Origin: a virus
Strand: one strand, 5' to 3'
DNA: 26,937 nucleotides
Virus record (IMG/VR): IMGVR_UViG_3300025704_000096
Location: 1 to 26,937 of that record
This document shows positions 1 through 23,725 of the stretch, piece by piece. Below the pieces are notes generated by a model. It was not told the DNA's origin, made no database searches, and was given only the letters and a program-made list of their open reading frames with translations. Positions within the stretch are counted from its first letter, which is position 1, and every line of letters begins with the position of its first letter. The translations under genes were made by a program, and so were the position numbers.

Positions 1-3000
1 CTGTTATCTTGGGCGGTTCTATATAATTTTTGCCGCCGTCAAGTATTACCACTGCAGGTAAATCAATAATAATTTTTGCACCCGGTAAATGTGTTGCTGG
101 AGTTGTTCCGTTTAATCCTCTTTGTAAACCACCGATAGTATTTAAAGCACGATCAACAAAAGAATAACTAATAAGTTCATTATCTATTTGTATCGTACCG
201 TTAATTGGGAAACCTTGTGCGTTATCTACCATGATCAAAACTGAACCGATAGTCATATATTCGTTTAGTTCAGTTATCTCATAATTTGTTTGCCCAACTA
301 ACGACAATCCATAATTATTATACCAATTAGAATATTGTTCTTTCTGCCATATTGCATCAGTTGGTAAGAATTCGTTTGTACCGTCAACATTTGAATAAAC
401 TAATTGCGGAGAAATATAAGATTGAGTTGTTTCATTCCACTCAGCAGGTAAATCAAAGTCTGTTATGTTTCCTGGGTATGTGTCGATACCTGTATACTTA
501 AATAAGAAGTCTTTAATAACTACGTGATAAGGTTTTGCTTCATTAATATATCCAGACAAGAATTCTTGGTTGTCTTGTTGATAATTCTGAATTGGTTTAA
601 GTTCTCTAATAACATGAGATACATCTACTAATGAAGTCTTGTTTAACCAAGGCAGATAGTTTTGTGATTCATCTGTCTCACTTTGAATATATTCAAATAG
701 AATAATTAGAGATTTGTTTCTAAACTCAACCAACTCATCAATATAAATTTGTTCGTTTAATGCACGAATAATCCAACGTGTTTCTTCACTTGGATATTCA
801 TCAAAGTCTGTTGTGTCAAAGAAATTATCTCCGAAGCCTGTTTTACCTGCGGCATAATCCCACAAGTACGTATTAAATTGTATTGTACCATTTTCTAAAC
901 CTATACGTGTCCAAATACTGTTGCCATCGTAACGATACATTTCCCATTTACCGTCACCGTTTGCCTCTACTGTAGCAATTGTTTTTATGTCTACGTTTAA
1001 TTTTGCTAAGTCTGCATAAATTGCAACACTAACCGTTGATTTAGTATTATTATTATATTGTCCTACTGGATTAGTTGTTGGCAACCACCAGTTGACATAT
1101 GTCCAATAGTCCGCTGTATCATAATATGTACCACTAGCAAATAAATATGTTGCATCTTGTCTTGTTTCTGAGATTGGATATTCAGCAAGAACTTTGTTTG
1201 CATATTCTAAATAATTTTCTAGTCCTAAGAATCTACTAAAAAAGAAACTTTGTCTTGGTCGTGCTAACACTCCTGACTGTACTGCTTTTGGCAAGTACGG
1301 ATTAGGTACAACTTCACCTACTTCGTCAACACCTGACATAGAATCTAACAGACGATCATAAAGACCTTCTGGTCTGTTTGTCGAAGTTTGTGGACCAAAC
1401 TTAGGTAGACCAGGTAAGAAATCATCTGGCTCGCCATCTTTAATTAAATTAAATTCTTGGTGTGAAGGATCATCATTGTTTCCTTCTGCAAAACCTATAT
1501 GAAATATACTATCAGTTGTGTTTATATAAGATTGTGCATTATATAAAGCAAACGTATTTTGTAGTAAAGGTGTAAAATATGCAATACCTGATCTTGTTGG
1601 TTGACCGATATATCTTTGTATTGTACTATCACTTAATGTTTTGCCTATAGATGTTTCTACGACATTTGTGTTACGTACCCAAAAGTAGTAACAAGGTTGA
1701 ACAGTATTAGATGCATTAATATCTGCTTCAACACTATATTGTGTAGTTGTTCTCGGTGTACCTGGTCCAGCATACTGTGCGGGTGGTCTAGTTGATTTGA
1801 CCCATGTATAACATGCCACTTGAGATCCTGGGAATACTTGTCCCCAAAATCTAGCATTATATGATACATCATTTTGATGATAGTTTAACCACCTTACCAT
1901 TGATGTGTCAAACCAAATATGTCCTATTTGATTTGTGCCCCAAGTTGCTCCTGAGTTAATTTCTCCAATTGCACTATTGTACATTGCAGGGTCTACACTA
2001 TTAACATAATCAATATTTTCTCTGGCTGCGCCTAATAGTTTGCCTTGCATTGGATCCATATAATCTAAATTAATTAATGTATCGTTTGTTTCTGCACTAT
2101 AGATTTGTGAATTTTGTATTCTGTTAATATCTACAATCGGTGCAGTTTGTCTATAAAGTACCCAGTCTTTAGCAGTGCCTGAGTTTTGGAACAATGTCAT
2201 TTGTCCTTCTAAATCACCGACACTTAAATTAGGTGTACCAATAACAACTTGATTGTCAGTAAAGTCTAATGCGGTTGCATATTGAGGTTCAAAACCAAAA
2301 GTTTGTTCTTGGCTATTTAAATTTTGTGCGTATGCAAACTTGCCAGGGTCTGTGATTGATCCATTATAGTTTGCAAGATAGTCATACATGTAAAGTGCGC
2401 CTGCATTATCCCATGTATCTACCCAACGAGTTGCATTGTTATCAAAAATCGTATCGTTGTCTAAGTTTTCGTCATCAATAAAATCAAATGTTGTTCCCAA
2501 GAATCTAGTAGATACCGGAGCAGAAATTACTACTGAATCATGCTCATTAAATTTAATTGTGTTACCAAACAATGTTCTACTAACATTATGCGGAGCATTA
2601 ATTGTTTGTGTTTCTGTATAAATGCTCAATCCTAATTCTGTAAATGTATCAGTGTCTGGTGCTTGTAATAATAGTTTTTCATTTATTAGTGATAAACTTG
2701 CATTAATAATTGAAATGATAAGTTTGCCATCGGATGCACTTGCAGTTATGTTTGTAATACCGTATTGATTAATAAGATTTGCAACACTAGTTGCAGTTCC
2801 ACCGCTCGGTAACTCTACAAGATAACCATTAATTAATAATTTTCGATCAGTAGTAAGTGAGCAATCACTTGTACCTATTACAGTTCCGTATTTCCCACCA
2901 CCATTAGTATATCTATAGACTGTTCCGTCTGTTTGATCTGCGCCATCTATTCTTATTTCACCCGGTGCGCCAATTAAAATTTCACTTCCGTATGAAGTCA

Positions 3001-6000
3001 TATCAGAGTCGTAGCCCATAAATACACCAACTCTGTCATCTGCATATGATACCATTGTTTGTACCCATTGCATCCTACGAGTGCTGATTGTAATAATATC
3101 TCCTGCTCTGATGTCGCCGAAGTATCTAAAGTCTGATGTTCCACCACCGATACCATAGTTATTGTCATCAACAACTGTGCCATTGACTGAAACTAATAAA
3201 GGTTCTGTCTGTACTAAGACTGTAAATGAAACAGTGTCATCAGTAAAAGTTAGTGTAGTAGCACTTGATCTGCTTTCTTTTAATTTAAATGTACTACCTG
3301 TAATATCGGACAAATAATAAACTTGATTAGGTGTAATGCCTGTAGTACCATAGTTGCCACCTTCATTAAAGACTACTGGATCACCGTTACTATAACCAGT
3401 CATTGATGCGTTTGCTGTAATCACACTTGATGTTACATCACTCGCAGTTCTACCTAAGAACAATGTAGTCCATGCTAATGGATACTGTTGTGGCTGATTA
3501 GGTATCGCAGTGTATTGTGATTCTATGTTTTGTACTAAACGTGAGAATACAAAGTTGCTTCCCCAATTTGTTTTATTAGTTGGGGATTTTGTTTCAGGCG
3601 CGCCAATCGATATAGTGTCTCCATTGCTATCACAACTTACAGAGAAACCAAATTTATCCCCTGCTATTGCGTTAACTGGGGCGACTGTGCCATCGATATC
3701 ATCTATCGCCTCATATGAAATTTGATTTGCTGTTCCAGTACCTGTACCTATGCCAGTTGCATTGAAAATAATACCTACTTTACCTTCTACTGCGCCAATG
3801 TCTTTCCATTGTTGGTCGGTCGTATTTCCTAAACTAGTAATTTCGTATGTTTCACCTATATTGAAATAACCTGCTGTTAAAGGTATGCGTTGTCTGTTAT
3901 AAACTTGTACTGAATTATTACTAGGGTTACCTGCAAAGATATAATTTTGATCATTGCTAATTGCAAGACTTGTACCTGAACTAAATGATGAAGTAAAAGA
4001 TTGCAGTGGTATAATATCATCTGATAATACAGAGTCATTTAAAGTATAAATTCTAAGTGTTGATGTAGTTGTTGTAGTCTCAGGCTCACTGATAACAAAA
4101 AGATTGTTAGAGTATGCGATTGCTGTACCGAATGATGCAGACTCTGTTATTCGATCTCCAGTGTCTTCATCAAATTGTTTTGATACAGGATTTAAGCCAT
4201 ATCGATAAACTTTACCTGCTTCTGAGTCACCGATTAAATAACCCATTCTAGGTGTATATGCTACTGAACTACCGAATTTTTCTCCGTCAGCACGATTTAA
4301 ATTGTTTGTTAAACTATAGTTAATTGACTTACGATATACTCCCCAACCACCGTCACTTGCTTCATCTACCCAAACAGTATTTTTTGAAAACTCTGCTTCA
4401 AGTAAATCTAAATCTGCAATGTCTCCGGGTTTTTCTACACGTTGTTCAACAAATGACAATCCTAATCCTTGAGTAGGTATTATTGCAGAAGACGGTTCCA
4501 ATTGCAAATTAATCATCACTTCTCTAGTATTAACGACTCTAGTTACAACATAATATCCGTTAATGTTTGGCCCAACACCAATAATTGATACTGGATCTAA
4601 CTTTGATAAAGTATGCCTTTTACTAAATGTAATCGTAGTAGTGCTATCATTGTTTGGTTGAACTCGTGTAACTTGTGCAATTGGCTTAACTGAGTAAACT
4701 TTCCATTGCTCTTTGAAGTTAGCAATCCACATGTAATCTCTTACATAAAATTGACTAATTGGAATTTGTTTGCCGGCAATATTGACTGCTCTATTTGTTA
4801 ATGAATTAAAATCATATGCAGCCATTTTAACGTCATTGTAGTTTACAAAACCTGCTGTTGGATAAAGACTTAATGGATCTTCACTTTTCAATGTAGATAA
4901 AATTTCAGGTCCGTCAATTGGTCTTGCATAGTTAAACAAATTGTGTACTGATACTTCTTGTTGAGATCCTATTGTAGGCGTACCTTCTGTTATAGATACT
5001 ATACCCGGATTACCTGTTAATTTTGCTTGATCTAATCTAAAGTCAACAAAGTTACTGTTTAGTGTTCCACCGAACTGTCCAGATAGAATAGCCCAGTTTT
5101 CATAAACATCATAATCAATTCCACCTGTCGGTAGTTGTGTTCCCTTAAAGGCTGATACTGCATTTACTGTACCTTTTGATTTAATTAAATTTTTATAAAC
5201 ATTTACTTGAGTAATATCTGATAGATTTACACTTGCCAAATAATCTCTAGGTCTAAATCCGATAAGAGAGAACGACAATTGATCTGCATCATTTTCTAAG
5301 TTTGCTTTTGTACTATTATAATACAGTGTACTTTCATAAGAACGTGTTGCAGAGTTAGGTAATAAACCTTTTTGTATGTCATTGTAGTCTGTTTCTACCC
5401 AATCAACTTCTATAAACTTATCATTTGGTTGAATTGTTTTGTTTGCGATAAAGAATTTATTCTTATATCTGACTATCTCGCCTTTTGCATATTTGTATGC
5501 AGTTTGCCATTCTTTAATATTGTCTTGGTTAAGAATAAATCCAGATGCATTAACTGTTCCATTCCATTCAGCAGTTTTAGTACCTCGTAGATAAATTCTA
5601 TTTTGTCTTAACCCTGTAATTAAGTTATAAATGACATCATTAAAAACTGTGTTATTATCAAACACAATACCATGTTCAATACTGCTCATATTGAATTGAC
5701 CATATCCCATAGTATCACCAACATTTAAGGTTTTTACTTGGAACTTAGTGTCTAATCTTTCTATTGATAAATCTTTAGTTGAAATAGGATATAAGTTTTG
5801 ATTTAATAAAAAGTTATCTTGTTCAATTGTTAATGGTTGAACTATATCACTATCTTTTTCAATCTTTAAATCTTGTGCTGCCGGGTTAACTGTTAGTAAC
5901 GATCCGTTTTCCCAATTGAATTGTGTCCAATAGAGATATTCTCTGATCATTGTGTTCCAATTTATCTCTGCGCCATTTTCAATTAAATCAAACTTCATGC

Positions 6001-9000
6001 CTTTACGTTTTAACCATGAACCGTAACTTGCTAAAAATTGTGAAAGGGCTTGATACGTGTAAAACTGTGTACCATAAGGAACAATCTTTTCATCTGTTTT
6101 AGTACTAGTATAGTCATTTGCAATCTTAACTGTATAGGAATCTACTTCAATTGTATTCGTATTTCCATTACCTATAGGAGTATCAGTTGTAAAATAGGCT
6201 TGATCTTGTGAACTACCAAATACTTTCCAACCATTTTGTACAATTTGAATTGTAACATTTGAAAATTTAATTTGATCATTGGGTTGATTGTCATGTAACA
6301 ACACAGAATAACTTTCATCTGGTATTAACAATGATGAATTATCAGAGTTAGGTGTTGCTTTTTCAACAAAGAATTTTAATAATGTTTTATCACTAAAACC
6401 TGCAAGTCTATAAATTAAACGAACATCTAAGTTGTTTAATAAAGTTGTAATTTCTGTAGTTGCATCAACACCCTGTTGTTTTTCATAATCAACAATCCAG
6501 TTTATGTAACTTGTTTTTGCTGTTCCGTCGCCGTAGATGTCAATAGCACCAATATCTAAATGACTTCTATCATTTACTAGATATTGTTTGAATTCTGTGT
6601 TATACTTATAATTGTCTAAATCTGATCCCAAGTTAAAAAACTCAGCAGGCTTAGTTAATGCAAATATTCGCATCAAGTCAAATGGATACGATGAACTTCT
6701 TCTGTATGAGAATTCAGCAGGAGCATCATCTCCTACTTTCCAATCACGTTGCAATGTATTAGAATCATATGCACCTATTAATGCATCAAATGGAGATAAC
6801 AAATCACCATGTTCATCAACAGGAATAATTTTATTTAAATCTGGTCGTTTTAATTGATCAATAGTTATACTAGTTGTTCCACCTGTATTGTAGATAATAC
6901 CTGCTTCGATGTCTCCCCACATAATTCCGTTTTCACTAGTATATGGGGCAGGGCCATAACGACTAGTCCACCAAGATGGCATTTCTGTAAAGCCTAACAT
7001 CTCCCATGGTGCTATGTCTGGCTGAGATGTACCATAAAAGTATTCATACACTCCTCTCCAATAACCTTGATCGATTGGTGTGCCAGTTAATTTATTTCCT
7101 GACTGATAATAGTTCCAACTAAACTCATTACCTTTTGTAAAACCAGATTGAGTTTTATAATCGATTCTGTTTTGTCCAGCCCAGTTTAAAAACTGTGAAC
7201 TGTAAATTTTTAAATAATCTTCAGTTGAATATGTTGACTCTCTAAAGAATCCAGGTAACACTTCGTAACGTTCAATAGGAACAAGTGTGCTTAATTTAAT
7301 ATTATTATAAATTCTAGTTTCAAATTCTAATAATGCTTGATCTCTAAAGTCAGTTAATCCTGTTGAAGGTGAATATTCAAGTGTATACAAAGATGTATAC
7401 GATCCGTCATGTCCTCTCAACATATATGTTGGCGTTTGATAGTTTGGATCTAATACGATTTCAGGTTTCCATCTAGGATACATACCTAACTTACTAGGTG
7501 TATTAGGTACAAAGTTACCGTATGTTTGATTGTATTCTTTGATAGTAACAACATCACCTGCTTGTAAATCTTCTGTTACTGTTAGTGAAGGTGAAGTTGT
7601 CGATACAACATAATCTACATCTCTGATTAATTGAGTAGTCTTTGTTACACCACTAGTTGTTCTTGTGATATAAACTAAAACTCCTTTATAGTTTGCTTCT
7701 GTAAAGTCATACGTTTGGGCTAGAGGGTAAATAGACTCTTGCAATGCGTTTGCAAATGTATATGTGTTTGTTTTATATGGCGCTTGTGATGGTAACATGT
7801 CTGACCAAAAGAAAGAATCTCCTTCTGATTTTGCTGATACCAATTGCTCTAATGCTGTATCTAAAATATAACTAGGTTCAAATCTTTGTTCCCAATTAAT
7901 ATCATTTACAATCTTTACAAGTTGTTGTTTGTATTTTATATACTGTTCAGAATTATATTGCAATGCATTAAACAAGTTGTGTTCTGACTTACGCAAAAAC
8001 ACACTCGGTAATACTAATGATGCAGAGTTTTGAATGATCTTTGTACCATATGGAACTAAGTTACCCAAGTCTCTTAAATTGTTAGAGCCAAATATTGTTC
8101 CAGTTGAATTAGGATTATTAATAAAGATATCTTGGTACTGTGATCTAATGTCACCGATGTCTGCAAGTTGTAAATCTGTGTTAAAAGGATTATTGCTTAA
8201 GTTTATAGGTATGCTATAATAAGCAGTATCAGATGTTTGATTACTTAGTATTAAAATTTGTACTGGTGTATCTACTGTTGGTGCAGTATTTAATTTAATC
8301 TTTGTTGCATCATTTGTTTCAGTAACTGTATATGTAGATTCTAATTGATATATGTTGTTTACATATACTTGTATACGCGGCCATGAATCGTCTGTTTGTG
8401 AAATTACAGCAACGTCACACGTAAATTCGGCTGCGGACCCTTTATCATATTCTAGTTCAAATATTTGATATTGAACTGAGGGGGCAAGTGCTGTTTGCCA
8501 GCCCAACTCACGTGTTTTTTCTGTACGTGTAGAATAATTGTACACGTAACCTGTATTAACCTTTTCGGTTTCTGGATTTGTTCCGCTGACATATGAGAAT
8601 GAATCAACATTAAGAGAACAATCGAAACTAATATCACCCACATTGTCTACTGCTGAGTATCGTAACGGGAAACCTAAGATTGCATCATTAATTCCAGTTC
8701 CTTTACCATAAGCAAATAATTTGTTACCTAAAAATGATGTACCTTGATAGACTGTAGTGTCTCCGAATGATACTCCGTTTTTGTCAAAGATATCAAACTT
8801 TGGTGCCTGATTGACTGTAAGTTTTTGTTGTGCTTCTTCCCAAACAGTCCCATCAAACCAAAAAGTAGAACCTTGATAATTATATCCTCTTACTGCTACT
8901 GTTTGATCATCTGTTGAACACAAGGCATCTTCTGCTTCAGTTAAAGTTATGACCGGAGAAGACCCAAATGTAATTGTTGAAAAGCCGACAACATAAATTT

Positions 9001-11437
9001 TGTTTCTAACTTCTAAATTTGTATCTGCTGTAAAGACAACTCTTGCACCAGAGAACAATTCATAATTGTTTACTGTTGTATCACTTCCTACGATTGATAC
9101 ATTTGTTTGTCCAACTATAGTAGATGATGCAAACTCAACTGTTAAAACAGTATTGGTGCCGACTATTTCGATATTTGTAATTTGTGTATTGTTGGGCAAA
9201 GCAAAATTAGAATCTGTTACATACATATTAACATCGAATGACGTATAAATGTCTGTTGTAGGAATAGTAATTGTTGTACTTGTGCCTGTTACACCTGCAA
9301 TTGTAGCAGTGTAACTTGTATATGTTTCTATATCAGGATAGTATTGTTGCTTGTTTGCAACTTGATCAAATGCATTTGTTGTTCTTGTATCAATAAAATC
9401 TACAGGTGCTTTTGCAATTGTTCCTGCATCAAATAATTTTAAGTTTGGATAAAACTCAATAATCGGACGTTTTGCTTTTGCATTACCTGTAGCATAAGTT
9501 GTTACAATAGATGGGTCTTTATTGTAATCAGCAGTCGCATTAATAACATCAATATGGAACCATCTGTTAGAACGTGACCATGCATTTCTATTAATAGAAT
9601 TTCTACTAATTGTAATATAATCTTGGTTTACAGGAATAAACAACTCTGTATCAAAGTTACCAATCGAATATGGTAGTGAGTCATAAGGAATATAATTTGT
9701 TCCTGTAAAATCTTCTGGTACTGTTAAGTCTGTAGTCGGAATCAAATTAATAGATTCTCCGACACCCTGAACATAATATTCACCTGTCAAATAATTTGAA
9801 GGAATAACATCTCCGTCAAATTCTACTTTTAATCCGTTTGTAAAAACTACGCCATTAGTAGATGTAAATGTTTTTTGACCTATAATATCTTCATCGATAT
9901 CTAAAGTATTTGTTAAGTTACTTTCAATTAATTTAATTTGCCCAACTTTATTTGCATTTGTACCGTCTTGGTAGTATAATGTGTCTAATAATGCTGAAAG
10001 ATAAGGTACTCTTGTAATTTCACCTGCTAATGATCTATAAAAGTCTAAGCCAATAAATTCTGTACCAAATTGAGCAGTAATCTTTTCCTCGGTTGGTATC
10101 ACTCCACCGGGAATTAAACGAATTGTCGGATCTGATGAGTCACCTACATATGTAATTGTATAAAAGTTTTCATTAACATTTGTATAAAAGCCTTCTTCCC
10201 ATAAACCTTCGTTGATATTTGCTACCATTGAGCCTGTTTCAGCAACTAATGATAAAGTTGGGCCGTTTAATGTTAATGAAATTGTAAATGATGTTGAATC
10301 AATAATATCTTTTATATAATAAATTGTATCAACGTCTAGTCCGCCAAGTAAAGGATCACTGTTAGGCACTGCTGTAAACGTTACAGTTTGATTAGCAACT
10401 AGGTCTGATGTAGTGCCAGATGATAACTTAAGTTGTGATGTTGTTGTCTCGTCAATTGATAAGGTTACAGGAGCAACGATTTCAGGAGATGTTAAATTAA
10501 CATCATAGTTTGCACCACTTTCATCAAAGAAAGATTGTACGAATCCTATTTCATTTGGTTCTTCTGTTTGATAGAACATAACAGTAAGACCTTCCAATGA
10601 AGTTACACCGTCAATGTTTCCTACTTGACTAACTGTTAATCCGTTGACTTCTGAAAATAGTTTTGTACTTACAACACTTACTGTGTTTTCTCCGGGGAAT
10701 AAAAAATCATTTTGTGCTTCTCTGCTCGGAACAGTAAATGTTACATAACCTGTACTTGCGCCGTTGTTATTGACACCTAATACATCTCTAGTATTCTGTG
10801 CACCGTCTAAGCCAGTTGTTCCTGGTACCCCTTGTATCCAAAATTGAGTTTCTTGGTTAACTGCAAATCTATAAGACCCGCCACGTAGCAATGTTAGAGT
10901 AGGATTGAGAGAACCTGATGCCGCACCTAATGCTTTAATACTATATGCATTTGATGTATCAGTTACAATGTAATCAGATTCTGAGAATACCGTAGCACTA
11001 GCAACAGTGACTGCTGGAGGCCCTTCTGGTATCCAATAGTATTGATTAAAGTTTATTAATTTATCTAGGTCTGTAAAAGAGTCCCATGAATAAAATTGAC
11101 TGTTAAACAAACGAGAATTGTCTAGTGTTACACCACCTTTAAGTTGCAGTGCATCGATAAGTTCAGGATAAGTTAAAAAGTCTTTAGCAGTAGATTGATT
11201 TGTATTTAAAAATGCAGTACCGGGTGCTAATTGATAATCTGTTCTTGTTTTGTTTGGTTCAGTTACATAATAATCTTTTGCATTAACACCGTATCCAAAC
11301 TTACTTCCAACATACCCTTGCAACGTTTCTGTTTTGGGTTCGTTGACTAATTGATCTAGTGTTGCTCCTAAGAACTGGGCATTGGTAGAGGTTTTAAATA
11401 TCTCAGGTAAAAACTCTAATGTTCTGATCTTTGCCAT
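1..11437 (-). CDS. Giant T4-like baseplate/tail structural protein, C-terminus beyond window
   Basis: One reading frame is open from an ATG at 11437 to the left edge: 3812 codons with no stop, N-terminus MAKIRTLEFLPEIFKTSTN. It lies 15 bases after gp6 in the late operon, so it is almost certainly a virion protein of the baseplate periphery. Visible modules: a beta-rich segment at about residues 176-236 with FWIQG and YVTFTVP, resembling the cupredoxin-like domain of phage tail proteins; related adhesin-like segments at about 322-412 and 2666-2730 (YYIKDI / YYLSDI); an FG-GAP-type beta-propeller at about 2388-3085; a GTGTGTA small domain inserted at about 2519-2569; and near the right end of the visible protein (about 3745-3800) a beta module with RGLNGTTPATHLPGA, common in phage structural proteins. 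No signal peptide, membrane segment or enzyme motif was seen. Large proteins of this position in marine T4-like phages have been labelled VrlC-like or gp7-like; I cannot choose between those names. Confidence 0.9.
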   Translation of the reverse strand, partial: MAKIRTLEFLPEIFKTSTNAQFLGATLDQLVNEPKTETLQGYVGSKFGYGVNAKDYYVTEPNKTRTDYQLAPGTAFLNTNQSTAKDFLTYPELIDALQLKGGVTLDNSRLFNSQFYSWDSFTDLDKLINFNQYYWIPEGPPAVTVASATVFSESDYIVTDTSNAYSIKALGAASGSLNPTLTLLRGGSYRFAVNQETQFWIQGVPGTTGLDGAQNTRDVLGVNNNGASTGYVTFTVPSREAQNDFLFPGENTVSVVSTKLFSEVNGLTVSQVGNIDGVTSLEGLTVMFYQTEEPNEIGFVQSFFDESGANYDVNLTSPEIVAPVTLSIDETTTSQLKLSSGTTSDLVANQTVTFTAVPNSDPLLGGLDVDTIYYIKDIIDSTSFTISLTLNGPTLSLVAETGSMVANINEGLWEEGFYTNVNENFYTITYVGDSSDPTIRLIPGGVIPTEEKITAQFGTEFIGLDFYRSLAGEITRVPYLSALLDTLYYQDGTNANKVGQIKLIESNLTNTLDIDEDIIGQKTFTSTNGVVFTNGLKVEFDGDVIPSNYLTGEYYVQGVGESINLIPTTDLTVPEDFTGTNYIPYDSLPYSIGNFDTELFIPVNQDYITISRNSINRNAWSRSNRWFHIDVINATADYNKDPSIVTTYATGNAKAKRPIIEFYPNLKLFDAGTIAKAPVDFIDTRTTNAFDQVANKQQYYPDIETYTSYTATIAGVTGTSTTITIPTTDIYTSFDVNMYVTDSNFALPNNTQITNIEIVGTNTVLTVEFASSTIVGQTNVSIVGSDTTVNNYELFSGARVVFTADTNLEVRNKIYVVGFSTITFGSSPVITLTEAEDALCSTDDQTVAVRGYNYQGSTFWFDGTVWEEAQQKLTVNQAPKFDIFDKNGVSFGDTTVYQGTSFLGNKLFAYGKGTGINDAILGFPLRYSAVDNVGDISFDCSLNVDSFSYVSGTNPETEKVNTGYVYNYSTRTEKTRELGWQTALAPSVQYQIFELEYDKGSAAEFTCDVAVISQTDDSWPRIQVYVNNIYQLESTYTVTETNDATKIKLNTAPTVDTPVQILILSNQTSDTAYYSIPINLSNNPFNTDLQLADIGDIRSQYQDIFINNPNSTGTIFGSNNLRDLGNLVPYGTKIIQNSASLVLPSVFLRKSEHNLFNALQYNSEQYIKYKQQLVKIVNDINWEQRFEPSYILDTALEQLVSAKSEGDSFFWSDMLPSQAPYKTNTYTFANALQESIYPLAQTYDFTEANYKGVLVYITRTTSGVTKTTQLIRDVDYVVSTTSPSLTVTEDLQAGDVVTIKEYNQTYGNFVPNTPSKLGMYPRWKPEIVLDPNYQTPTYMLRGHDGSYTSLYTLEYSPSTGLTDFRDQALLEFETRIYNNIKLSTLVPIERYEVLPGFFRESTYSTEDYLKIYSSQFLNWAGQNRIDYKTQSGFTKGNEFSWNYYQSGNKLTGTPIDQGYWRGVYEYFYGTSQPDIAPWEMLGFTEMPSWWTSRYGPAPYTSENGIMWGDIEAGIIYNTGGTTSITIDQLKRPDLNKIIPVDEHGDLLSPFDALIGAYDSNTLQRDWKVGDDAPAEFSYRRSSSYPFDLMRIFALTKPAEFFNLGSDLDNYKYNTEFKQYLVNDRSHLDIGAIDIYGDGTAKTSYINWIVDYEKQQGVDATTEITTLLNNLDVRLIYRLAGFSDKTLLKFFVEKATPNSDNSSLLIPDESYSVLLHDNQPNDQIKFSNVTIQIVQNGWKVFGSSQDQAYFTTDTPIGNGNTNTIEVDSYTVKIANDYTSTKTDEKIVPYGTQFYTYQALSQFLASYGSWLKRKGMKFDLIENGAEINWNTMIREYLYWTQFNWENGSLLTVNPAAQDLKIEKDSDIVQPLTIEQDNFLLNQNLYPISTKDLSIERLDTKFQVKTLNVGDTMGYGQFNMSSIEHGIVFDNNTVFNDVIYNLITGLRQNRIYLRGTKTAEWNGTVNASGFILNQDNIKEWQTAYKYAKGEIVRYKNKFFIANKTIQPNDKFIEVDWVETDYNDIQKGLLPNSATRSYESTLYYNSTKANLENDADQLSFSLIGFRPRDYLASVNLSDITQVNVYKNLIKSKGTVNAVSAFKGTQLPTGGIDYDVYENWAILSGQFGGTLNSNFVDFRLDQAKLTGNPGIVSITEGTPTIGSQQEVSVHNLFNYARPIDGPEILSTLKSEDPLSLYPTAGFVNYNDVKMAAYDFNSLTNRAVNIAGKQIPISQFYVRDYMWIANFKEQWKVYSVKPIAQVTRVQPNNDSTTTITFSKRHTLSKLDPVSIIGVGPNINGYYVVTRVVNTREVMINLQLEPSSAIIPTQGLGLSFVEQRVEKPGDIADLDLLEAEFSKNTVWVDEASDGGWGVYRKSINYSLTNNLNRADGEKFGSSVAYTPRMGYLIGDSEAGKVYRYGLNPVSKQFDEDTGDRITESASFGTAIAYSNNLFVISEPETTTTTSTLRIYTLNDSVLSDDIIPLQSFTSSFSSGTSLAISNDQNYIFAGNPSNNSVQVYNRQRIPLTAGYFNIGETYEITSLGNTTDQQWKDIGAVEGKVGIIFNATGIGTGTGTANQISYEAIDDIDGTVAPVNAIAGDKFGFSVSCDSNGDTISIGAPETKSPTNKTNWGSNFVFSRLVQNIESQYTAIPNQPQQYPLAWTTLFLGRTASDVTSSVITANASMTGYSNGDPVVFNEGGNYGTTGITPNQVYYLSDITGSTFKLKESRSSATTLTFTDDTVSFTVLVQTEPLLVSVNGTVVDDNNYGIGGGTSDFRYFGDIRAGDIITISTRRMQWVQTMVSYADDRVGVFMGYDSDMTSYGSEILIGAPGEIRIDGADQTDGTVYRYTNGGGKYGTVIGTSDCSLTTDRKLLINGYLVELPSGGTATSVANLINQYGITNITASASDGKLIISIINASLSLINEKLLLQAPDTDTFTELGLSIYTETQTINAPHNVSRTLFGNTIKFNEHDSVVISAPVSTRFLGTTFDFIDDENLDNDTIFDNNATRWVDTWDNAGALYMYDYLANYNGSITDPGKFAYAQNLNSQEQTFGFEPQYATALDFTDNQVVIGTPNLSVGDLEGQMTLFQNSGTAKDWVLYRQTAPIVDINRIQNSQIYSAETNDTLINLDYMDPMQGKLLGAARENIDYVNSVDPAMYNSAIGEINSGATWGTNQIGHIWFDTSMVRWLNYHQNDVSYNARFWGQVFPGSQVACYTWVKSTRPPAQYAGPGTPRTTTQYSVEADINASNTVQPCYYFWVRNTNVVETSIGKTLSDSTIQRYIGQPTRSGIAYFTPLLQNTFALYNAQSYINTTDSIFHIGFAEGNNDDPSHQEFNLIKDGEPDDFLPGLPKFGPQTSTNRPEGLYDRLLDSMSGVDEVGEVVPNPYLPKAVQSGVLARPRQSFFFSRFLGLENYLEYANKVLAEYPISETRQDATYLFASGTYYDTADYWTYVNWWLPTTNPVGQYNNNTKSTVSVAIYADLAKLNVDIKTIATVEANGDGKWEMYRYDGNSIWTRIGLENGTIQFNTYLWDYAAGKTGFGDNFFDTTDFDEYPSEETRWIIRALNEQIYIDELVEFRNKSLIILFEYIQSETDESQNYLPWLNKTSLVDVSHVIRELKPIQNYQQDNQEFLSGYINEAKPYHVVIKDFLFKYTGIDTYPGNITDFDLPAEWNETTQSYISPQLVYSNVDGTNEFLPTDAIWQKEQYSNWYNNYGLSLVGQTNYEITELNEYMTIGSVLIMVDNAQGFPINGTIQIDNELISYSFVDRALNTIGGLQRGLNGTTPATHLPGAKIIIDLPAVVILDGGKNYIEPPKIT

Positions 11438-11452
11438 ATTTTATTTACAACC

Positions 11453-14400
11453 TTATGACTGCATTGTTGCAGGAGTTAATGCGGGTACGATTACAATGTC
11501 TTCTGTAGTAGCCGCGTTTACAAATATTTCGTATGGTCTACATTTAATTTCATATAAATCACCAAATAATTTTTCTGGATCATCTGAAACAAGTATAACC
11601 GAACTCACTAGTTCTCCTATTTGTTCATGTAGATACGCACTTAATTCTGAGAAGAAGAAAGTATCGCCAAAGTTCCAATTGTTAATATCAAAATAACTAT
11701 CCATTGCCGCTAATACAGAACTTCTAATTTCACTGTTAGATGCATTTGTCGATTGTGATTTTACCACTTTAATAGTTGCTCTTAATGCTTGATCTGCTTT
11801 CGCTCCAAACAACGGTTTAAACGTAACACTATTTAATATAACTGAATCCGACAACATTTTATAATCTTGCACTAATGGATATGCAGTATTCAATTCATCA
11901 AGTGTTGGTTGATTGGGTTGTTTAACTGTATTTGTCGTGTCTTTAATATAATTATTAAATGCAGTATAATATGCTTGTGTCACTAAGTATAAATCAATAA
12001 TGTTTGTTGTTGCTGGATCAATACGAGTAGTGTTATTAGCATTATGTCTATATTGATAATCTAATCCTTGTCTGCCTGACTTAACAGAATAATCCAACTG
12101 TGCAGTCATAATATAATTAGGTGTTGTTATAGTAGGATCTTGCACTGACTTATAAAATTTGTTGTCAGTATATGCATAAAATAATTGTCCTACAGGAAAT
12201 TCATATTTTACAATTTCGATTTGATTTTTAGTACCATATGTATAAATGACATCTGTGCTGGGCACAATTAATTGTCTGGTTAAATTAACAGGATCAGTAA
12301 CTGTTCTAAAGAATACATATACACCTATGTTTGCACCGTTGTTTACAAAACCCGTAATATCATTAAAGAAGTCTGGGTCTAATATTAATTGACCGTTATT
12401 AACATCTGTAGCGGCTACTTCGACTTGAAAGTCATTTACATAACCATCTGATTCAACAGTTTGTCCTAAAATATTAACTTTAGTATCTGCACCTAATGCA
12501 TTTGCAGTGTTAAACACTGTATTAATACCCAACATGTTGATAAAGTCTTGTATGATTTTGCCAGTGAACGGGTCATATACTAATTCATCTTTACTATAGG
12601 TAAATCTTGTATCAGCAACACTACCAAAATAGTATGTTAATGTTTTATAAGTTACTGTATAACGATTGTTTCCTAAACTAGTAAACTTAACAAAGTAGTT
12701 TGCATTTGATGCCGATCCGATTGACCAACGTTCTTGGTTAATCAACAACGAGTTATTAAAAATTAAAGTAAAATCTTGTTGTAATTCTATCTTAAGAATT
12801 GCTTCTTGTATTACTTCAGATGATAACGAGTTATCAAATACTGGAATAATTTCTGTAAGTAAAACTCCGTTAGGTATATAACCATTTACTGTTACTGGTC
12901 CCTTACCGTTTGCAAATGTTCCTTCTCCGTTATTGTTACCATCGCCAACAACATTTAATATTGTTGACCATATATAATTTTTTTCTCCGCCAGTTGGGAC
13001 ACCTGCAACTAAACGATTGTCTGCATCAAAATAGTATCCTGTTGGTGCATCAAATTTTAATAATGCTCCTTGAGTTGCATACTTTGCATTAGTCGTTGTA
13101 AATGTTCCTATAGGTTGCGGTTGTTCTATTGTTCCGTTGAGTGAATAAAAATAACCAGATTCACTTGACGAATCTACTGAACTTGTTTTCCAATATAGAG
13201 TATTACCGCCGCCTGTTCCTGGATATGCATAACGTGTATAATTTTGTATGTAGTACTGGTTAGCACGATTCAATGCAAGTACTGATGCTAAATCATCAGT
13301 GAAGAATTGAATGATGTCTGATGTGTTGTTCACTTGCAATGTTAAGAAACCGTCTCCAGACTCTTGGTACAACGCACCGTCATCTCCAAATGAGTTTGTA
13401 CTAGAATATTTTCCAGTTGGATCAAGTAAATCTAAATTTTTAGATACTCCGATAGAACTTCTATTAATTGCTTTTGATTTAACAATAGAGTTATAGAGAG
13501 TATAAGGGAAGTTTGTATAGTCTTCTCCGTTAACCATACGATTTTGTGTATAATATCTTGTTGGTGCCCTTTGTTTGATTGCTGAGATAGGTTCTCTTGC
13601 TTGAGCATTTGATACTACAACAGGCAATGAAAAGGTCAATGACATAGTTTGTGTACTACCTACTCTGTCAACATACACAATAGAAACACTAACACCGTTC
13701 ATTTCAGAAGGGTCAATAGTATATGTCAATGCATTGCTTGATCTTACATATGCTCTAAAGTTACCTACGGGCATTTCTGAAAATACACCGTCACCAAACA
13801 CATATGTAACTTGATCATTTACACGTGAGTTTACAGAAAAGATTTTCTTATCACTTGATTCTGTTTGTAGGTATGCATCTGCATAAACATTTTCTACTTG
13901 TTTCCATGAACCTAATGTGTTATCTGCACTTACTTGATATAACCAAGTATCTGTCTCGTTAACACCCACAACATCGACATTAATTGTTTGGTTTGAAATT
14001 TGTTGTTGAAAGTCAAAATTAAAAGGTGTTAATGATCCTTGTTTAAAGAAAAACATAAACCCTGTGTTAGGACTACCAAAACCTAATTTATCGTTCCTGT
14101 ATAACATATTAAGTTTATTAGTCGGTGCAGGTGGAATCTCGTAAATATAATTTTCATCTAGTGAAGTTGCACTTACTAGTTCAAAGTTCATGCCTTGACC
14201 GTCAACCTGTGATGTAAACGGTACAATTGGCATCGTACCTTCAGGTAATCTTACTCCATATTCACTTGTTGTTACACCTAAAATTTCAGATGCATTTCCC
14301 GGTCTACCTATTCTTTGTGAATCTACCATCGCCGCATTGAATACAGCATTCATTTGATCTAACCAATTACTGTTAGATGGGTCGTTCCAACTAATCGGTG

Positions 14401-14818
14401 TATTACTTAAATTAACACCATTTGCATCTCTAACATTTTCAGTTGTTCTAACTGTTGTTACTTTTAAAAAACCAGATGCACAAGAATTTCTTTTAGGTGT
14501 GTAGCCAACTAAGTCTGCTAATTTTACTACAGAGTCTCTGCGTTCGGCCGTGTCAATGAAATTTTCACGTGTGTTTAAATCGTTTCTAAAAGCAAGACCT
14601 TGACCCATAAAAGCCATAACATCAAGTAAAGCAATATATTCTGAACTTTCAATATAGTCGTTGAATTTTTCAGGATAATAGAGTCTAATATAATCAATAA
14701 AACTTTTTCTTAAAGTCTCATAATCATATGATCGGAAGTCTGCCTCACGAAAGGTTTGGTAGATTGCTTTCCAATCATTTACTCCAAAGAGTCCTGATTG
14801 CCTTGAACTTGTAGCCAT
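11453..14818 (-). CDS. 6: Baseplate wedge subunit gp6 (baseplate J-like)
   Basis: Forms the ring-making dimeric wedge core of the T4-type baseplate that joins neighbouring wedges round the hub. The N-terminal part has the typical gp6/J-like stretch at about residues 74-115 (QGLAFRNDLNTRENF, then RRDSVVKLADLVGYTPKR). The C-terminal part (about 1000-1090) has the conserved region with SVTFKPLFGAKAD, NNWNFGDTFFFSEL and LHEQIGELVSSV. At 1121 residues it is far longer than T4 gp6 (660), the extra length being beta-rich middle sequence. The frame extends six codons upstream to a TTG at 14836, but I choose the ATG at 14818. It has an AGGGA ribosome site six bases upstream, and a late promoter box at 14838-14845 would start transcription near 14832, downstream of the TTG. 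It follows gp25 by 49 bases and is followed after 15 bases by the giant structural gene. Confidence 0.93.
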   Translation of the reverse strand: MATSSRQSGLFGVNDWKAIYQTFREADFRSYDYETLRKSFIDYIRLYYPEKFNDYIESSEYIALLDVMAFMGQGLAFRNDLNTRENFIDTAERRDSVVKLADLVGYTPKRNSCASGFLKVTTVRTTENVRDANGVNLSNTPISWNDPSNSNWLDQMNAVFNAAMVDSQRIGRPGNASEILGVTTSEYGVRLPEGTMPIVPFTSQVDGQGMNFELVSATSLDENYIYEIPPAPTNKLNMLYRNDKLGFGSPNTGFMFFFKQGSLTPFNFDFQQQISNQTINVDVVGVNETDTWLYQVSADNTLGSWKQVENVYADAYLQTESSDKKIFSVNSRVNDQVTYVFGDGVFSEMPVGNFRAYVRSSNALTYTIDPSEMNGVSVSIVYVDRVGSTQTMSLTFSLPVVVSNAQAREPISAIKQRAPTRYYTQNRMVNGEDYTNFPYTLYNSIVKSKAINRSSIGVSKNLDLLDPTGKYSSTNSFGDDGALYQESGDGFLTLQVNNTSDIIQFFTDDLASVLALNRANQYYIQNYTRYAYPGTGGGNTLYWKTSSVDSSSESGYFYSLNGTIEQPQPIGTFTTTNAKYATQGALLKFDAPTGYYFDADNRLVAGVPTGGEKNYIWSTILNVVGDGNNNGEGTFANGKGPVTVNGYIPNGVLLTEIIPVFDNSLSSEVIQEAILKIELQQDFTLIFNNSLLINQERWSIGSASNANYFVKFTSLGNNRYTVTYKTLTYYFGSVADTRFTYSKDELVYDPFTGKIIQDFINMLGINTVFNTANALGADTKVNILGQTVESDGYVNDFQVEVAATDVNNGQLILDPDFFNDITGFVNNGANIGVYVFFRTVTDPVNLTRQLIVPSTDVIYTYGTKNQIEIVKYEFPVGQLFYAYTDNKFYKSVQDPTITTPNYIMTAQLDYSVKSGRQGLDYQYRHNANNTTRIDPATTNIIDLYLVTQAYYTAFNNYIKDTTNTVKQPNQPTLDELNTAYPLVQDYKMLSDSVILNSVTFKPLFGAKADQALRATIKVVKSQSTNASNSEIRSSVLAAMDSYFDINNWNFGDTFFFSELSAYLHEQIGELVSSVILVSDDPEKLFGDLYEIKCRPYEIFVNAATTEDIVIVPALTPATMQS

Positions 14819-14837
14819 AGTTTTTCCCTGTTTCAAG

Positions 14838-14867: not shown

Positions 14868-15317
14868 TTATGCTACTGTGGCTGTATTTGTCTGAGAATC
14901 AAAGAATAATGCTATATCTCCGGCATTATTGTATGGAGTGATAGATAATTGAACTTCTATTAATATTCCATTTTCTCTAGGATATGCTTGGATTGTATTG
15001 ATTATAAGACGGGGATCTAATCCAGCAACTCGTCTAACTTCATTTTGTATCGCAGTTTGAATATCACTTGTGTTGGGTTCAAAAATAAAGTCCCATAATG
15101 TAGTGCCATAATTGGGTTTGCCTACCTTTTCCCCGCGTCTAATATTAAGTGCATTAACTAAATCTTGTATAACAAGTTGTTCATCAGTTAATCTAAATTT
15201 TTTACCAAAGATAATAGGATTAGTTATGCCGTTTGCTTGTCCATCAATAGCCGGCACAGGATTAACCGTTCGTGCTTTGTCTGCGTTTATTGTTGAAAAT
15301 CCTACATAAGTTGCCAT
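14868..15317 (-). CDS. 25: Baseplate wedge subunit gp25 (gp25/GPW lysozyme-like family)
   Basis: A small wedge protein that, in T4-type baseplates, sits at the inner core with gp53 and gp6 and helps trigger sheath contraction. The family name includes lysozyme, but the conserved role is structural. The family core is seen at about residues 58-110: the stretch from RRGEKVGKPNYGTTLWDF to IFEP, then IQNEV, VAGLDPRL and GILIEVQL. Length (149) is close to T4 gp25 (132). The start ATG at 15317 gives MATYVGFSTIN and no other in-frame start lies nearby. The nearest ribosome-site-like bases, AGGA, overlap the gp5 stop and lie 13 bases from the ATG, which is long; a perfect TATAAATA sits between them. 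Confidence 0.93.
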   Translation of the reverse strand: MATYVGFSTINADKARTVNPVPAIDGQANGITNPIIFGKKFRLTDEQLVIQDLVNALNIRRGEKVGKPNYGTTLWDFIFEPNTSDIQTAIQNEVRRVAGLDPRLIINTIQAYPRENGILIEVQLSITPYNNAGDIALFFDSQTNTATVA

Positions 15318-19343: not shown

Positions 19344-21409
19344 TATGTATCACCGTTTCCTTCTTCGTTTTCTTCTTGACCACTACCTTGTTCTTGTGCT
19401 CCTGCTTCTTCTCCTGTTGTTGCTTCTTCTTCAGGGTCAGCAAATGTATTAATTGCACAAGATAAATCTTGTGTAAATTTTCCTTCACTAAACGTACTAT
19501 CTATAGTTATAATTTTATAACTTACTCCTTTAATTGTGTTTTCTAGCGCCGTCGGATATCTAAAAAATAAAATAGAATCATTGAGATCCATTACACCTGT
19601 TTCGCCATTGTAATCTATTGCTTCTTTAAAGTCAATTTCAATAAAGACTTGACCGCCATTTGCAGTTACTCTAAATCCATCGTCTCCGTAAAATCTTTGA
19701 TAAACTTGATCAGGGCTACCTCGATGTTCTTGTACTAAAAAGTCTGGATCTCCTAATATCTTAATTTTTGCAGTAGCATATGAATCAGGAGAATACAAAC
19801 TTGTTACATATTCATTTTGTGATGATCTTCCCCCACCTACAGCATTTAGTGTGGGCATAGATGTATTTTTGTTTGTTGCAACAGGAGTTTGTGCGCCGCC
19901 ACCAGAGCCTCTACCTTTTTGATCGTTGTCTTCATTATTTAAATTTGCATTTCCTAATACTTCATTGTAAAATAAATTATCTAACTTTTGTGAATATTCT
20001 AAAATTTCTCTATTTTCTCCAGACCACCAATATTCATATCTTTTATGAGGACCATAATAATCTGTCGATGGATTAGTAACACTCGTAGTAATGATAGGTG
20101 TTTCATATTTTTCTATTCTAAAAATAGTTTGGTATGCCCAATCAACCACGATACTATCCCATTTGGCTTTTTGAATAACCGGTGTTACTTTATACCAAGC
20201 AACTTTTGTATTACTACCCGGATCTTCTTGAGGTTGTTCTCCTGTTGTCAAATTAGGAGTGGCCTGACTTTTATAAATGGCTTTTAATGCGTCATACATA
20301 TAACCACTACCCTTAAGAACTTCGTCAAAGATTTCTATAAATGTAGTATCGCCATTAAATATTATTTTTCTATGTGCATCGTCTGGTACTGCTGTCGCGG
20401 ATTCAGCATCGTTTGCTTCAGATGTGTTTAATGCGCCGCCGTCTGGTCCACACCATTTGCTTTTGTCTGTATCAGTAGGTAAAATAAGTCTAGCATCTTT
20501 AATAGCATCTACGCCATCTCCTATATACTCTATAGAATAAACATTTGCAAACTCTGCTTCCCCGTCCTGAACTTTTTGTGCTTCTATATTATTAATTTGT
20601 GTGAATAAGCCTTTACCAGGTATATCATTGCCATTAGCATCTTGTGATCCGCCTCTCATAGCCTGATCAAATGTTTGACCAGAAATTGTTTTAGTTGAAT
20701 CTATTCTACCTCTTTTTACACCGAATGCTTTTCCGGGAGATAATGCTACACCTGACAATGCATATCTTGTTGCACCACCTTCAATTGAAAATTTAATACC
20801 CGTAATACTAATATCATAGTATGTTTGAAATATAGAATTACCACTCGCATTTGCATCTAATACATCTCCTTCAAAATCTTCTTCGCCGGATATTAAATCA
20901 CCATTTTCATTATAACCCAAAAACTTAACACCTATGATAAAAAACTGTCTGCTTGGGTTTTCAACTACACCGTTGCCTGAATATCCTGTTTCATTATAAT
21001 ATGATTGTAATTGATCACTTGCTCTTTTTAATTTTGTGTTAAAAGAAAACCCGTATGGTTCTATAATATCAAATGTCACAGAATAAGTATTAGTAGAAGA
21101 TTGAGTGGCTTCACCATTAATTGCTTGTTTTAATCTGAAATTATCTATATAATAATCTAAATCAAAGCCCGGTGCTCTTTGAGATTGATCATTATTAATT
21201 CCACCTGACTGTGCAATTAAATATGCACCACCTGTGTTAGTTTGACCAGTTGCTTCTTGTAATGCATTAATTGATCTTCTACCCGTTGCATTAAAAGCAT
21301 CATATGCATCCGGAGTAATCATATACAAACTTAGTTGATATGTATAAGAAGATAAGGCTCCTAAAGGATTCTTTAATCTTCTTCCTGGTGCATCAGTTGG
21401 ACTAGGCAT
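19343..21409 (-). CDS. Probable baseplate hub subunit, gp27-like
   Basis: Probably the hub protein that joins the tail tube to the spike. The position, between gp53 and gp5 with TAATG overlaps at both ends, is what a gp27-type partner of gp5 would have. An N-terminal beta-rich part (about 80-130) contains YYIDNFRLK and TYSVTFDIIEPYGFSF. A second strand-rich part (about 196-240) has YYDISITGIKFSIEGG. The C-terminal part (about 555-656) has GDPDFLVQEHRG, VFIEIDF and STFSEGKFTQDLSC, a pattern familiar from phage hub proteins. The last 32 residues form an acidic tail dominated by Glu, Gly and Gln with no hydrophobic residues after its start. At 688 residues it is much longer than T4 gp27 (391). 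The gp27 name rests on position and fold-like pattern rather than clear sequence identity; an unrelated baseplate protein is possible. Confidence 0.6.
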   Translation of the reverse strand: MPSPTDAPGRRLKNPLGALSSYTYQLSLYMITPDAYDAFNATGRRSINALQEATGQTNTGGAYLIAQSGGINNDQSQRAPGFDLDYYIDNFRLKQAINGEATQSSTNTYSVTFDIIEPYGFSFNTKLKRASDQLQSYYNETGYSGNGVVENPSRQFFIIGVKFLGYNENGDLISGEEDFEGDVLDANASGNSIFQTYYDISITGIKFSIEGGATRYALSGVALSPGKAFGVKRGRIDSTKTISGQTFDQAMRGGSQDANGNDIPGKGLFTQINNIEAQKVQDGEAEFANVYSIEYIGDGVDAIKDARLILPTDTDKSKWCGPDGGALNTSEANDAESATAVPDDAHRKIIFNGDTTFIEIFDEVLKGSGYMYDALKAIYKSQATPNLTTGEQPQEDPGSNTKVAWYKVTPVIQKAKWDSIVVDWAYQTIFRIEKYETPIITTSVTNPSTDYYGPHKRYEYWWSGENREILEYSQKLDNLFYNEVLGNANLNNEDNDQKGRGSGGGAQTPVATNKNTSMPTLNAVGGGRSSQNEYVTSLYSPDSYATAKIKILGDPDFLVQEHRGSPDQVYQRFYGDDGFRVTANGGQVFIEIDFKEAIDYNGETGVMDLNDSILFFRYPTALENTIKGVSYKIITIDSTFSEGKFTQDLSCAINTFADPEEEATTGEEAGAQEQGSGQEENEEGNGDT

Positions 21410-21726
21410 TAAATGCTCAATACCTTTTTAAGAGTATCCATAGTAGGAACAAATATTTGTGCTCCTGATGTAAAATTAAAATATGGATCAGGTCCTAATA
21501 AATTAGGATTCCGGGCCGCAAACACCCACCATAAACGTGAATCATTGTATAAATGTTGTGCTAACATGTCAGGTCTAAATTCATATTGCGGCGTAATAGT
21601 AAAAGATGCATCTGATTGCAATCTAGGTATATTTGGATACGGTTCCATGATGCCTAAATATGTGCCATCAGTAATTTCTGTTCTATTATATGGACTTGTT
21701 GGTGGATATAGATTATTAGAAGCCAT
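21409..21726 (-). CDS. 53: Baseplate wedge subunit gp53
   Basis: In T4-type baseplates gp53 clamps neighbouring wedges together and completes the wedge assembly with gp25. The family hallmark fills the second half of this 105-residue protein: YEFRPDMLAQHLYNDSRLWW, then VFAARNPNLLGPDPYFNF and GAQIFVPT, matching the usual pattern of a short helix, a LWWV strand, a DP-F turn and a final IxVP strand. The frame reaches back to a TTG two codons earlier (21732). I choose the ATG at 21726 because it forms a TAATG overlap with the stop of the gene before it, the same arrangement as the next two junctions. Shorter than T4 gp53 (196 residues). Confidence 0.87.
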   Translation of the reverse strand: MASNNLYPPTSPYNRTEITDGTYLGIMEPYPNIPRLQSDASFTITPQYEFRPDMLAQHLYNDSRLWWVFAARNPNLLGPDPYFNFTSGAQIFVPTMDTLKKVLSI

Positions 21727-22499
21727 TACCAAACTCCCGGTTTATTGTTTTGTGATCCACGCAATAATTTTCCTGTTGCGTATTCTTTAACACTAAAGTC
21801 ATTACTAATAGTATTTCTACTAACAACTGGAACACATGTTATTGTCATTGTAATTTTTGTCGGTACATATGTGATTGCTTGATCTGTTTGTGCTTCAAAC
21901 GTTGCAGGTGGTCTATTTCCACCTGGTTCTAATTGACCGCCTATCAATGATAAATTTGATGTTCCGGATGCATCGTCAGAATTTGTTGCTCTAATATAGT
22001 CAACATTGTTGGGTAAGTTATATGTAAAATTAGTAACAGCAACCGGATGATTATCTAATTGAAATGCTCCCAAGCCAAAAAGAAATCCTAATGGGGGAGG
22101 TGTTCCGTTAGTTGGATTCTGATCTTGACCATAAAACATTTTAGTCATTGATTTAAAGAAGTGAATAGATGCCAATAGATAGTTTGCTTCAAATGTATCT
22201 TGTGCTGTAAAATCAGCAGTAACCGTGACTTGCTCTACTGAACTATTCATGTATTGTTGAATTCTATAGTTTGTGTGAGTAGGCAGTACACCGTCATAGT
22301 TTGCCATGTATGATGTTGCAACTTGCGGAGTGTATGGGAAAACAACGCCATCTGTTTTTACAAGGGGTGCAAGAATCCCAGGTACGTTTGCTTTGTATAG
22401 ATAGTTTGCTGTAGGAGCCAAAGACATGCGTACTCTCCAATCGGCAAGTCTAATATCTGCGGCTGAATCTTCTTGTGTTTCTCCAGGTGTATCTGGCAT
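21726..22499 (-). CDS. 48: Baseplate tail tube cap protein, gp48-like
   Basis: First gene of the late baseplate operon. In T4, gp48 and its paralogue gp54 sit on top of the baseplate and start tail tube polymerisation. The protein (257 residues) has a Trp/Arg strand near the N-terminus (ADWRVRMSLAP), a mixed middle with HTNYRIQQYMNSSVEQVTVT and FTAQDTFEANYLLASIHFFK, then LGFLFGLGAFQLDNHPVAVTNF. It ends with a tube-like strand (YVPTKITMTITCVPVVSR). Such a middle is typical of tube/tube-cap proteins of marine T4-like phages. T4 gp48 is longer (364), and gp54 is the main alternative. A GGAG site lies nine bases before the ATG. The leader carries a late promoter box and a strong-looking hairpin. 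Confidence 0.62.
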   Translation of the reverse strand: MPDTPGETQEDSAADIRLADWRVRMSLAPTANYLYKANVPGILAPLVKTDGVVFPYTPQVATSYMANYDGVLPTHTNYRIQQYMNSSVEQVTVTADFTAQDTFEANYLLASIHFFKSMTKMFYGQDQNPTNGTPPPLGFLFGLGAFQLDNHPVAVTNFTYNLPNNVDYIRATNSDDASGTSNLSLIGGQLEPGGNRPPATFEAQTDQAITYVPTKITMTITCVPVVSRNTISNDFSVKEYATGKLLRGSQNNKPGVW

Positions 22500-23638: not shown

Positions 23639-23649
23639 AACTTTTGGGC

Positions 23650-23677
23650 AAGCAAGGCATCCAAATGTCTTGCTTTT
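23650..23677 (+). terminator. Rho-independent terminator after gp55
   Basis: AAGCAAG, G, CAT, a CCAA loop, ATG, T, CTTGCTT: an 11-base stem with one G-U pair, running into TTTT. It starts 12 bases after the gp55 stop and would separate gp55 from gp47 transcription. The clearest terminator in the window. Confidence 0.8.
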
Positions 23678-23698
23678 CCTACCTCTGTCATGTATAAT
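23670..23698 (+). promoter_or_regulatory. Sigma70-type promoter for gp47-gp46-radical SAM
   Basis: TTGCTT and a perfect TATAAT are separated by exactly 17 bases, again with TG directly before the -10 box. The -35 lies in the 3' arm of the preceding terminator. Start would be near 23705, about 21 bases before the gp47 ATG. Confidence 0.65.
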
Positions 23699-23725
23699 TA
23701 ATGCTGAATACTGGGAAAACTAATT

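Follow-up and report, generated by a model that had tools for sequence, protein, structure and literature searches.

A giant protein in the gene-7 slot beside gp6, probably a wedge-anchored baseplate component enlarged by inserted modules

In phage T4 the gene directly after gp6 is gene 7, whose product, the wedge initiator gp7 (phrog_964), has 1,032 aa. The wedge core consists of two gp6 chains and one gp7-like chain and is described as conserved from XM1 to T4 to eCIS; the gp7-like part of contractile systems is likewise described as docking fibres and as a hotspot of evolutionary re-engineering (PMC8894135, PMC10457771). Some cyanophages carry far larger proteins in the same slot. The gene after gp6 in S-SM1 (SSM1_102) encodes 6,180 aa, and its cluster, T4-GC969 (phrog_701), was detected in S-SM1 virions (PMC3037559). 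The giant in the gene-7 slot of RN05-S (phrog_2885) has 4,337 aa. When these cyanophage giants were compared with T4 gp7, profile probabilities at the KGT motif were 93.5% and 88.6%. In cyanophage S-SSM7 (L241, 19992-39086), two proteins of ~3,000 residues follow gp6, both labelled gp7, which may reflect splitting or duplication at this position. In phage CBB, a protein of about 3,340 aa (CBB_236) adjoins gp6 (CBB_237), and purified virions yielded 21 unique peptides of CBB_236 by mass spectrometry (7.72% coverage) and 13 peptides of gp6 (PMC5259590).

The window analyzed here is a stretch of 26,937 nucleotides, positions 1 to 26,937 of IMG/VR record IMGVR_UViG_3300025704_000096. Its first 11.4 kb (2..11437, minus strand) form a single frame that starts with ATG and runs for 3812 codons with zero internal stops, still open at the window edge (Table 1). 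Given the base composition of the frame itself, 3812 stop-free codons would be expected with a probability of ~10^-132. The nearest IMG/VR relatives comprised 34 loci with 51-99% identity, and in comparisons with relatives the third codon positions carried most of the differences in every 250-codon bin, so translation and purifying selection extend over the whole frame. In the nearest relatives the complete gene is one uninterrupted frame of 6,385-6,726 codons. The window's protein should therefore have about 6,430 residues, ~2,620 of them beyond the window, and the window should carry the first 60% of a single protein of roughly 6,400 residues. The preliminary description had proposed one frame of at least 3812 residues adjoining gp6, and the open frame, the ATG, the third-position bias and the relatives confirm it.

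Broken frames among the relatives were rare. One of the 34 loci in the first set (L031) had a frameshift near residue 2,890, and one of 76 checked loci in the second set (L181) had one stop. The first of these is a near relative and the second a more distant one, and both would fit a frame that arose in assembly or belongs to a gene in decay; against this, more than 70 relatives from other assemblies hold the frame open to their contig ends, and the third-position bias runs through every bin. The chance that the frame is an artefact or in decay is very slight, and that reading is already refuted by the conservation data. In L031, which shares 94.9% DNA identity with the window, the giant gene is split at ~9635-9699, either by an assembly error or by a real break.

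Table 1. Features of the giant gene and of neighbouring baseplate genes in the window, with residue numbers of the giant protein.
Feature	Positions	Strand	Residues	Basis or remark
Giant-protein coding sequence	2..11437	-	1-3812 of an expected length of about 6,430	Continues past the left edge of the window; PHROG_10938
Conserved third core block	308..2167	-	3091-3710	HMM alignment to Cassandra, Atu_ph07, SCTP-2
Seven FG-GAP-type blades	2180..4282	-	2386-3086	Pfam FG-GAP_2 E 2.8e-6; blade HMM, seven units
FCCH-like repeat within the propeller	3242..3457	-	2661-2732	Repeat HMM E 1.5e-10
FCCH-like repeat	4484..4669	-	2257-2318	Repeat HMM E 6.6e-13
Main conserved core	4943..8932	-	about 836-2165	Collinear with four isolate lineages
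Candidate gp7-like helical segment, invariant KG(T) motif	5099..5395	-	2015-2113 (motif match 2081-2104)	
Chitin-binding type-3-like small beta domain	5390..5518	-	about 1974-2016	Foldseek; boundaries inferred from sequence
FCCH-like beta repeat, insert absent from isolates	10211..10462	-	326-409	Repeat HMM E 1.9e-23
Conserved N-terminal domain	10967..11437	-	1-157	HMM alignment to Cassandra, Atu_ph07, SCTP-2, GAP32
gp6-type baseplate wedge protein, adjacent upstream gene	11453..14836	-		PHROG_10646 E 1.4e-248; phrog_219; Pfam Gp6-like_1st weak
gp25-type wedge protein / sheath initiator	14868..15317	-		phrog_43, phrog_261
Hub/spike, gp5 position, 1336 aa	15333..19343	-		Pfam Phage_base_V weak; annotated hub at this place in Cassandra and GAP32
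gp53-type wedge protein	21409..21732	-		Pfam Phage_gp53 weak; position as CBB_242 (Pfam gp53 hit)

No close DNA relative of the window was found among annotated phages. At the protein level, the PHROG_10938 profile (3324 positions) matched in five stretches (E 8.7e-259), and HMM alignment found a shared set of blocks, in conserved order, in Cassandra (PA5oct group), Atu_ph07, SCTP-2 and GAP32. The collinear blocks shared with the isolates cover residues 1-157, about 600-700, 836-2165 and 3091-3710; in the last of these the GAP32 alignment is secure up to about residue 3342. Gene order agreed as well, with gp25, gp6 and the giant gene following one another in the window and in those isolates that have annotated neighbours; relatives take this place in phages GAP32, CBB, SCTP-2, Atu_ph07 and those of PA5oct type. 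The gp6-type protein of the window has 1127 aa counted from the first TTG, and its true start may lie a few codons inside. Judged by profile match and block order, the giant protein belongs, in enlarged form, to a family of giant virion proteins that had been catalogued before, and is not unprecedented. PHROG places this family under 'head and packaging', an annotation given without a shown basis. The isolate members (CBB_236, GAP32_230, Cassandra_0442, SCTP2_140 and AUZ94962 of Atu_ph07) share the collinear blocks and the gene place with the window clade, but they have about 3,341-4,449 aa and lack FCCH-like repeats, whereas the window clade reaches 6.1-6.7 kaa, with 10-18 FCCH-like repeats found and a long C-terminal extension.

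The claim that this is a virion protein is well supported through homologues, above all by the CBB_236 peptides (PMC5259590). The CBB homologue shares 25-30% identity with the window protein in the core, and the peptides are evidence that this homologue is present in the virion, not of its location. The size of the protein had also been described as unmatched among T4 baseplate proteins; this holds for T4 itself, where gp7 has 1032 residues, but not for T4-like phages, given the S-SM1 and RN05-S proteins in the same slot.

A scan of viral contigs with the Cassandra protein as sole query gave no match; with an alignment as query, at least 570 relative-encoding stretches were recovered. In 22 long contigs the frame had either 6,086-6,726 or 4,601-5,109 codons. 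Two of the 22 are longer than 300 kb, which makes jumbo phages of at least these two. In a complete relative of 6,429 residues (L003), the repeat HMM identified 16 FCCH-like modules, 3 in the part that corresponds to the window and 13 beyond it; three other relatives had 16-18, the clade of 4.6-5.1 kaa had 0-1 and the isolates had 0. These modules fall between backbone blocks that are common to the shorter clade, and the difference in size is thus mainly one of inserted modules. The modules that account for the added length are the 16 FCCH-like repeats, a seven-bladed FG-GAP propeller, a BNR-like region and a chitin-binding-type fold, in line with the modular, beta-rich make-up proposed at the outset. 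The seven blades at residues 2386-3086 probably form a seven-bladed beta-propeller. Beyond the window, a second propeller-like or BNR-like region (residues 5153-5260) showed 44% identity to a Caulobacter phage tail fibre, while tblastn searches of annotated phages with the propeller region and with residues 3712-5139 returned no match.

In sequence searches of solved structures, neither the window part of the protein nor its C-terminal part gave a match. AlphaFold2 models of residues 1-710 (pLDDT 76.0) and 1060-2170 (mean pLDDT 75.6) were compared with solved structures by Foldseek; neither piece had a global match, and no wedge protein was recovered with confidence. Among predicted viral proteins, the core fold matched an Atu_ph07 structural protein (E 3.8e-52) and several uncharacterised giants. 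Locally, several chitin-binding domains matched the core model (prob 1.00, 41-46 columns, rmsd 1.3-2.2 A), and a domain of this type is missing at the site of residues ~1974-2016 in the four aligned isolates. By eye, chitin-binding-type modules appear to have differing insertion points: the window clade has one ahead of the KGT segment, and those of Cassandra, Atu_ph07 and SCTP-2 lie between other blocks; the placement was seen in the cores of L037, L036 and L070 against about 5390-5518 in the window. The N-terminal model matched the E1 enzyme Uba6 (prob 1.00 over 101 columns), which is consistent with an FCCH-type repeat at residues 326-409. Foldseek hits of the N-terminal model to laccases were discarded, with a TM of about 0.08, an rmsd close to 27 A and a prob of 0.1-0.2. 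Model confidence was low for the helices at the KGT motif and for the N-terminal 120 residues, and these parts could need a partner.

To judge the relation to gp7, profiles phrog_964 and phrog_17744 were run against four complete isolate genomes and eight related contigs, where neither matched; the same profiles matched the T4, K491, RN05-S and Yut3 controls, and gp6 was detected in 15 of the 16 genomes or contigs of the scan. The gene-7 slot is thus occupied, and no other gp7 is visible. The gp8 N-domain was likewise not found in genomes that carry the PHROG_10938 family. Profile comparisons with gp7, made with shallow as well as deep profiles, gave no significant homology: hhalign of slices of the giant gave probabilities of 0.0-0.6%, and the N-terminal profile gave at most 1.3% against the gp7 of T4, cyanophages and Yut3. 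Residues 2015-2113 ranked top of all windows against gp7 core profiles, at 15-19% and about 4 SD above the mean of windows, and 5 of 30 block-shuffled profiles equalled this score. Because block shuffling may leave the motif block whole, the null may be stricter than it should be. The KG pair of the segment is invariant in 69 relatives and in the four isolate lineages.

Two readings of the origin of the backbone were weighed against these results. The giant may be a true descendant of gp7, in which residues ~2015-2113 would be the gp7 core (a helix-turn-helix and a KGT helix that pairs with two gp6) and the rest would have been added, as in the cyanophage giants, which do contain a gp7 core in the gene-7 slot. 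The gene position, the lack of another detectable gp7, the invariant KG pair and the rank of the segment all suit such descent, as does its predicted helical nature; its low model confidence in isolation could be that of a helix bundle which depends on a partner. The hhalign probability and the shuffled profiles of equal score argue the other way, together with the lack of a gp7 match by Foldseek and the place of the core, which is N-terminal in RN05-S and Yut3 and would be internal here. Descent is conceivable, with the balance tilted against it. The position after gp6 and a possible KGT motif are shared with T4 gp7, but no significant sequence or fold match to that protein was found; with a weak KGT-motif match, descent is not established and gp7 membership is not claimed.

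Alternatively, an unrelated giant adhesin may have moved into the gene-7 position, displacing gp7 together with the outer wedge proteins, in an independent, non-homologous replacement. The adhesin-like, lineage-specific content points to this, as does the lack of a secure sequence or fold match to any gp7, but the weak KGT resemblance does not, and full loss of the gp7 fold would be unusual for a wedge core described as conserved from XM1 through T4 to eCIS. We regard such a replacement as rather unlikely.

The cyanophage giants occupy the same slot, fall in the same size range, are multi-domain and have some short beta-module similarity to the window family; they differ in having a recognisable gp7 core in the N-terminal part, which the window family lacks, and HMM alignment of RN05-S with the window family found no common collinear backbone. 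XM1 gp17 and AlgoCIS Alg12, gp7-like lateral wedge parts, share the proposed role of a peripheral, fibre-docking wedge chain, but they have hundreds of residues and not thousands, and homology to the giant was not detected.

The PHROG_10938 giant probably fills the gene-7 slot of a T4-related jumbo phage, in the order gp25, gp6, giant and fibre genes, as a wedge-anchored baseplate component that displays adhesion or fibre-docking modules. The conserved collinear backbone would be built into the virion beside gp6, most likely as a peripheral wedge component, and would take over the role of gp7 and possibly that of gp8 too. Lineage-specific modules (FCCH-like repeats, propellers, chitin-binding-type domains) are inserted into and after this backbone and would face outwards, where they would probably tether fibres, touch the host surface or both. 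The open frame, family membership, gene order, a homologue in virions, the lack of any other detectable gp7 in complete genomes and growth through inserted modules are established by the data; direct contact with gp6, a copy number of six per baseplate, outward display and binding of host or fibre are all inferred. The preliminary description favoured an external arm over a wedge core, which on present evidence is a false choice: the gene is in the gene-7 (wedge) slot with no other gp7 detected in complete genomes of the family, and its modules look external. A wedge-anchored platform is the most likely reading.

It has also to be considered that the protein is mainly a tail-fibre or whisker-type appendage, encoded beside gp6 by chance and with no wedge role. 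Its beta-rich modules, chitin-binding-type fold and tail-fibre-like propeller region would suit an appendage, and CBB bears tail whiskers of unassigned origin (PMC5259590). Against this, the collinear backbone is conserved among phages whose hosts differ widely, unlike host-range fibres, and GAP32 has a homologue too, whereas the authors of the CBB study look for the whisker genes among the genes that GAP32 lacks (PMC5259590). An appendage of this kind is improbable.

A bolder form of the wedge-anchored platform is that one chain of ~700 kDa replaces the whole outer wedge of T4 (gp7, gp8 and perhaps gp10/gp11), in which case six chains totalling ~4 MDa would make up the peripheral baseplate and the 16 inserted FCCH-like copies of the window clade would make a host-contact platform; we put this forward as an unlikely, speculative extension.

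These results are further evidence that T4-related phages use the position behind gp6 to build very large proteins: the cyanophages and the Rak2/PA5oct-like jumbo phages, which have no backbone in common, have each arrived at a size of about 6 kaa in it. If the giant is a gp6 partner, it offers a test of how much enlargement a wedge component tolerates with the contractile trigger still functional. The clades with 0-1 and with 16 repeats on the same backbone provide a clean natural series for studying the function of the repeats. The window protein is a useful extreme case, with precedents in its own family and in the cyanophages.

Several minor observations were made on the surrounding genes. 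In the relatives, a conserved 206-residue protein and then a fibre-like protein are encoded downstream of the giant gene; in L003 the fibre-like protein, two genes downstream (21062-22279), has a C-terminal Peptidase_G2-like region (autoproteolytic chaperone domain) by a weak Pfam match. The hub gene (15333-19343) holds a long Ala/Gly/Ser-rich stretch at ~16000-18000, with a G+C of 0.41-0.44 against about 0.34 elsewhere, and an opposite-strand open frame within it (16714-17151) is probably a by-product. On the plus strand, 22685-26936 encodes a gp55-type late sigma factor, recombination nucleases of the gp47 and gp46 types and a truncated protein that by eye is radical-SAM-like; Cassandra and GAP32 also have the gp55-, gp47- and gp46-type genes as neighbours.
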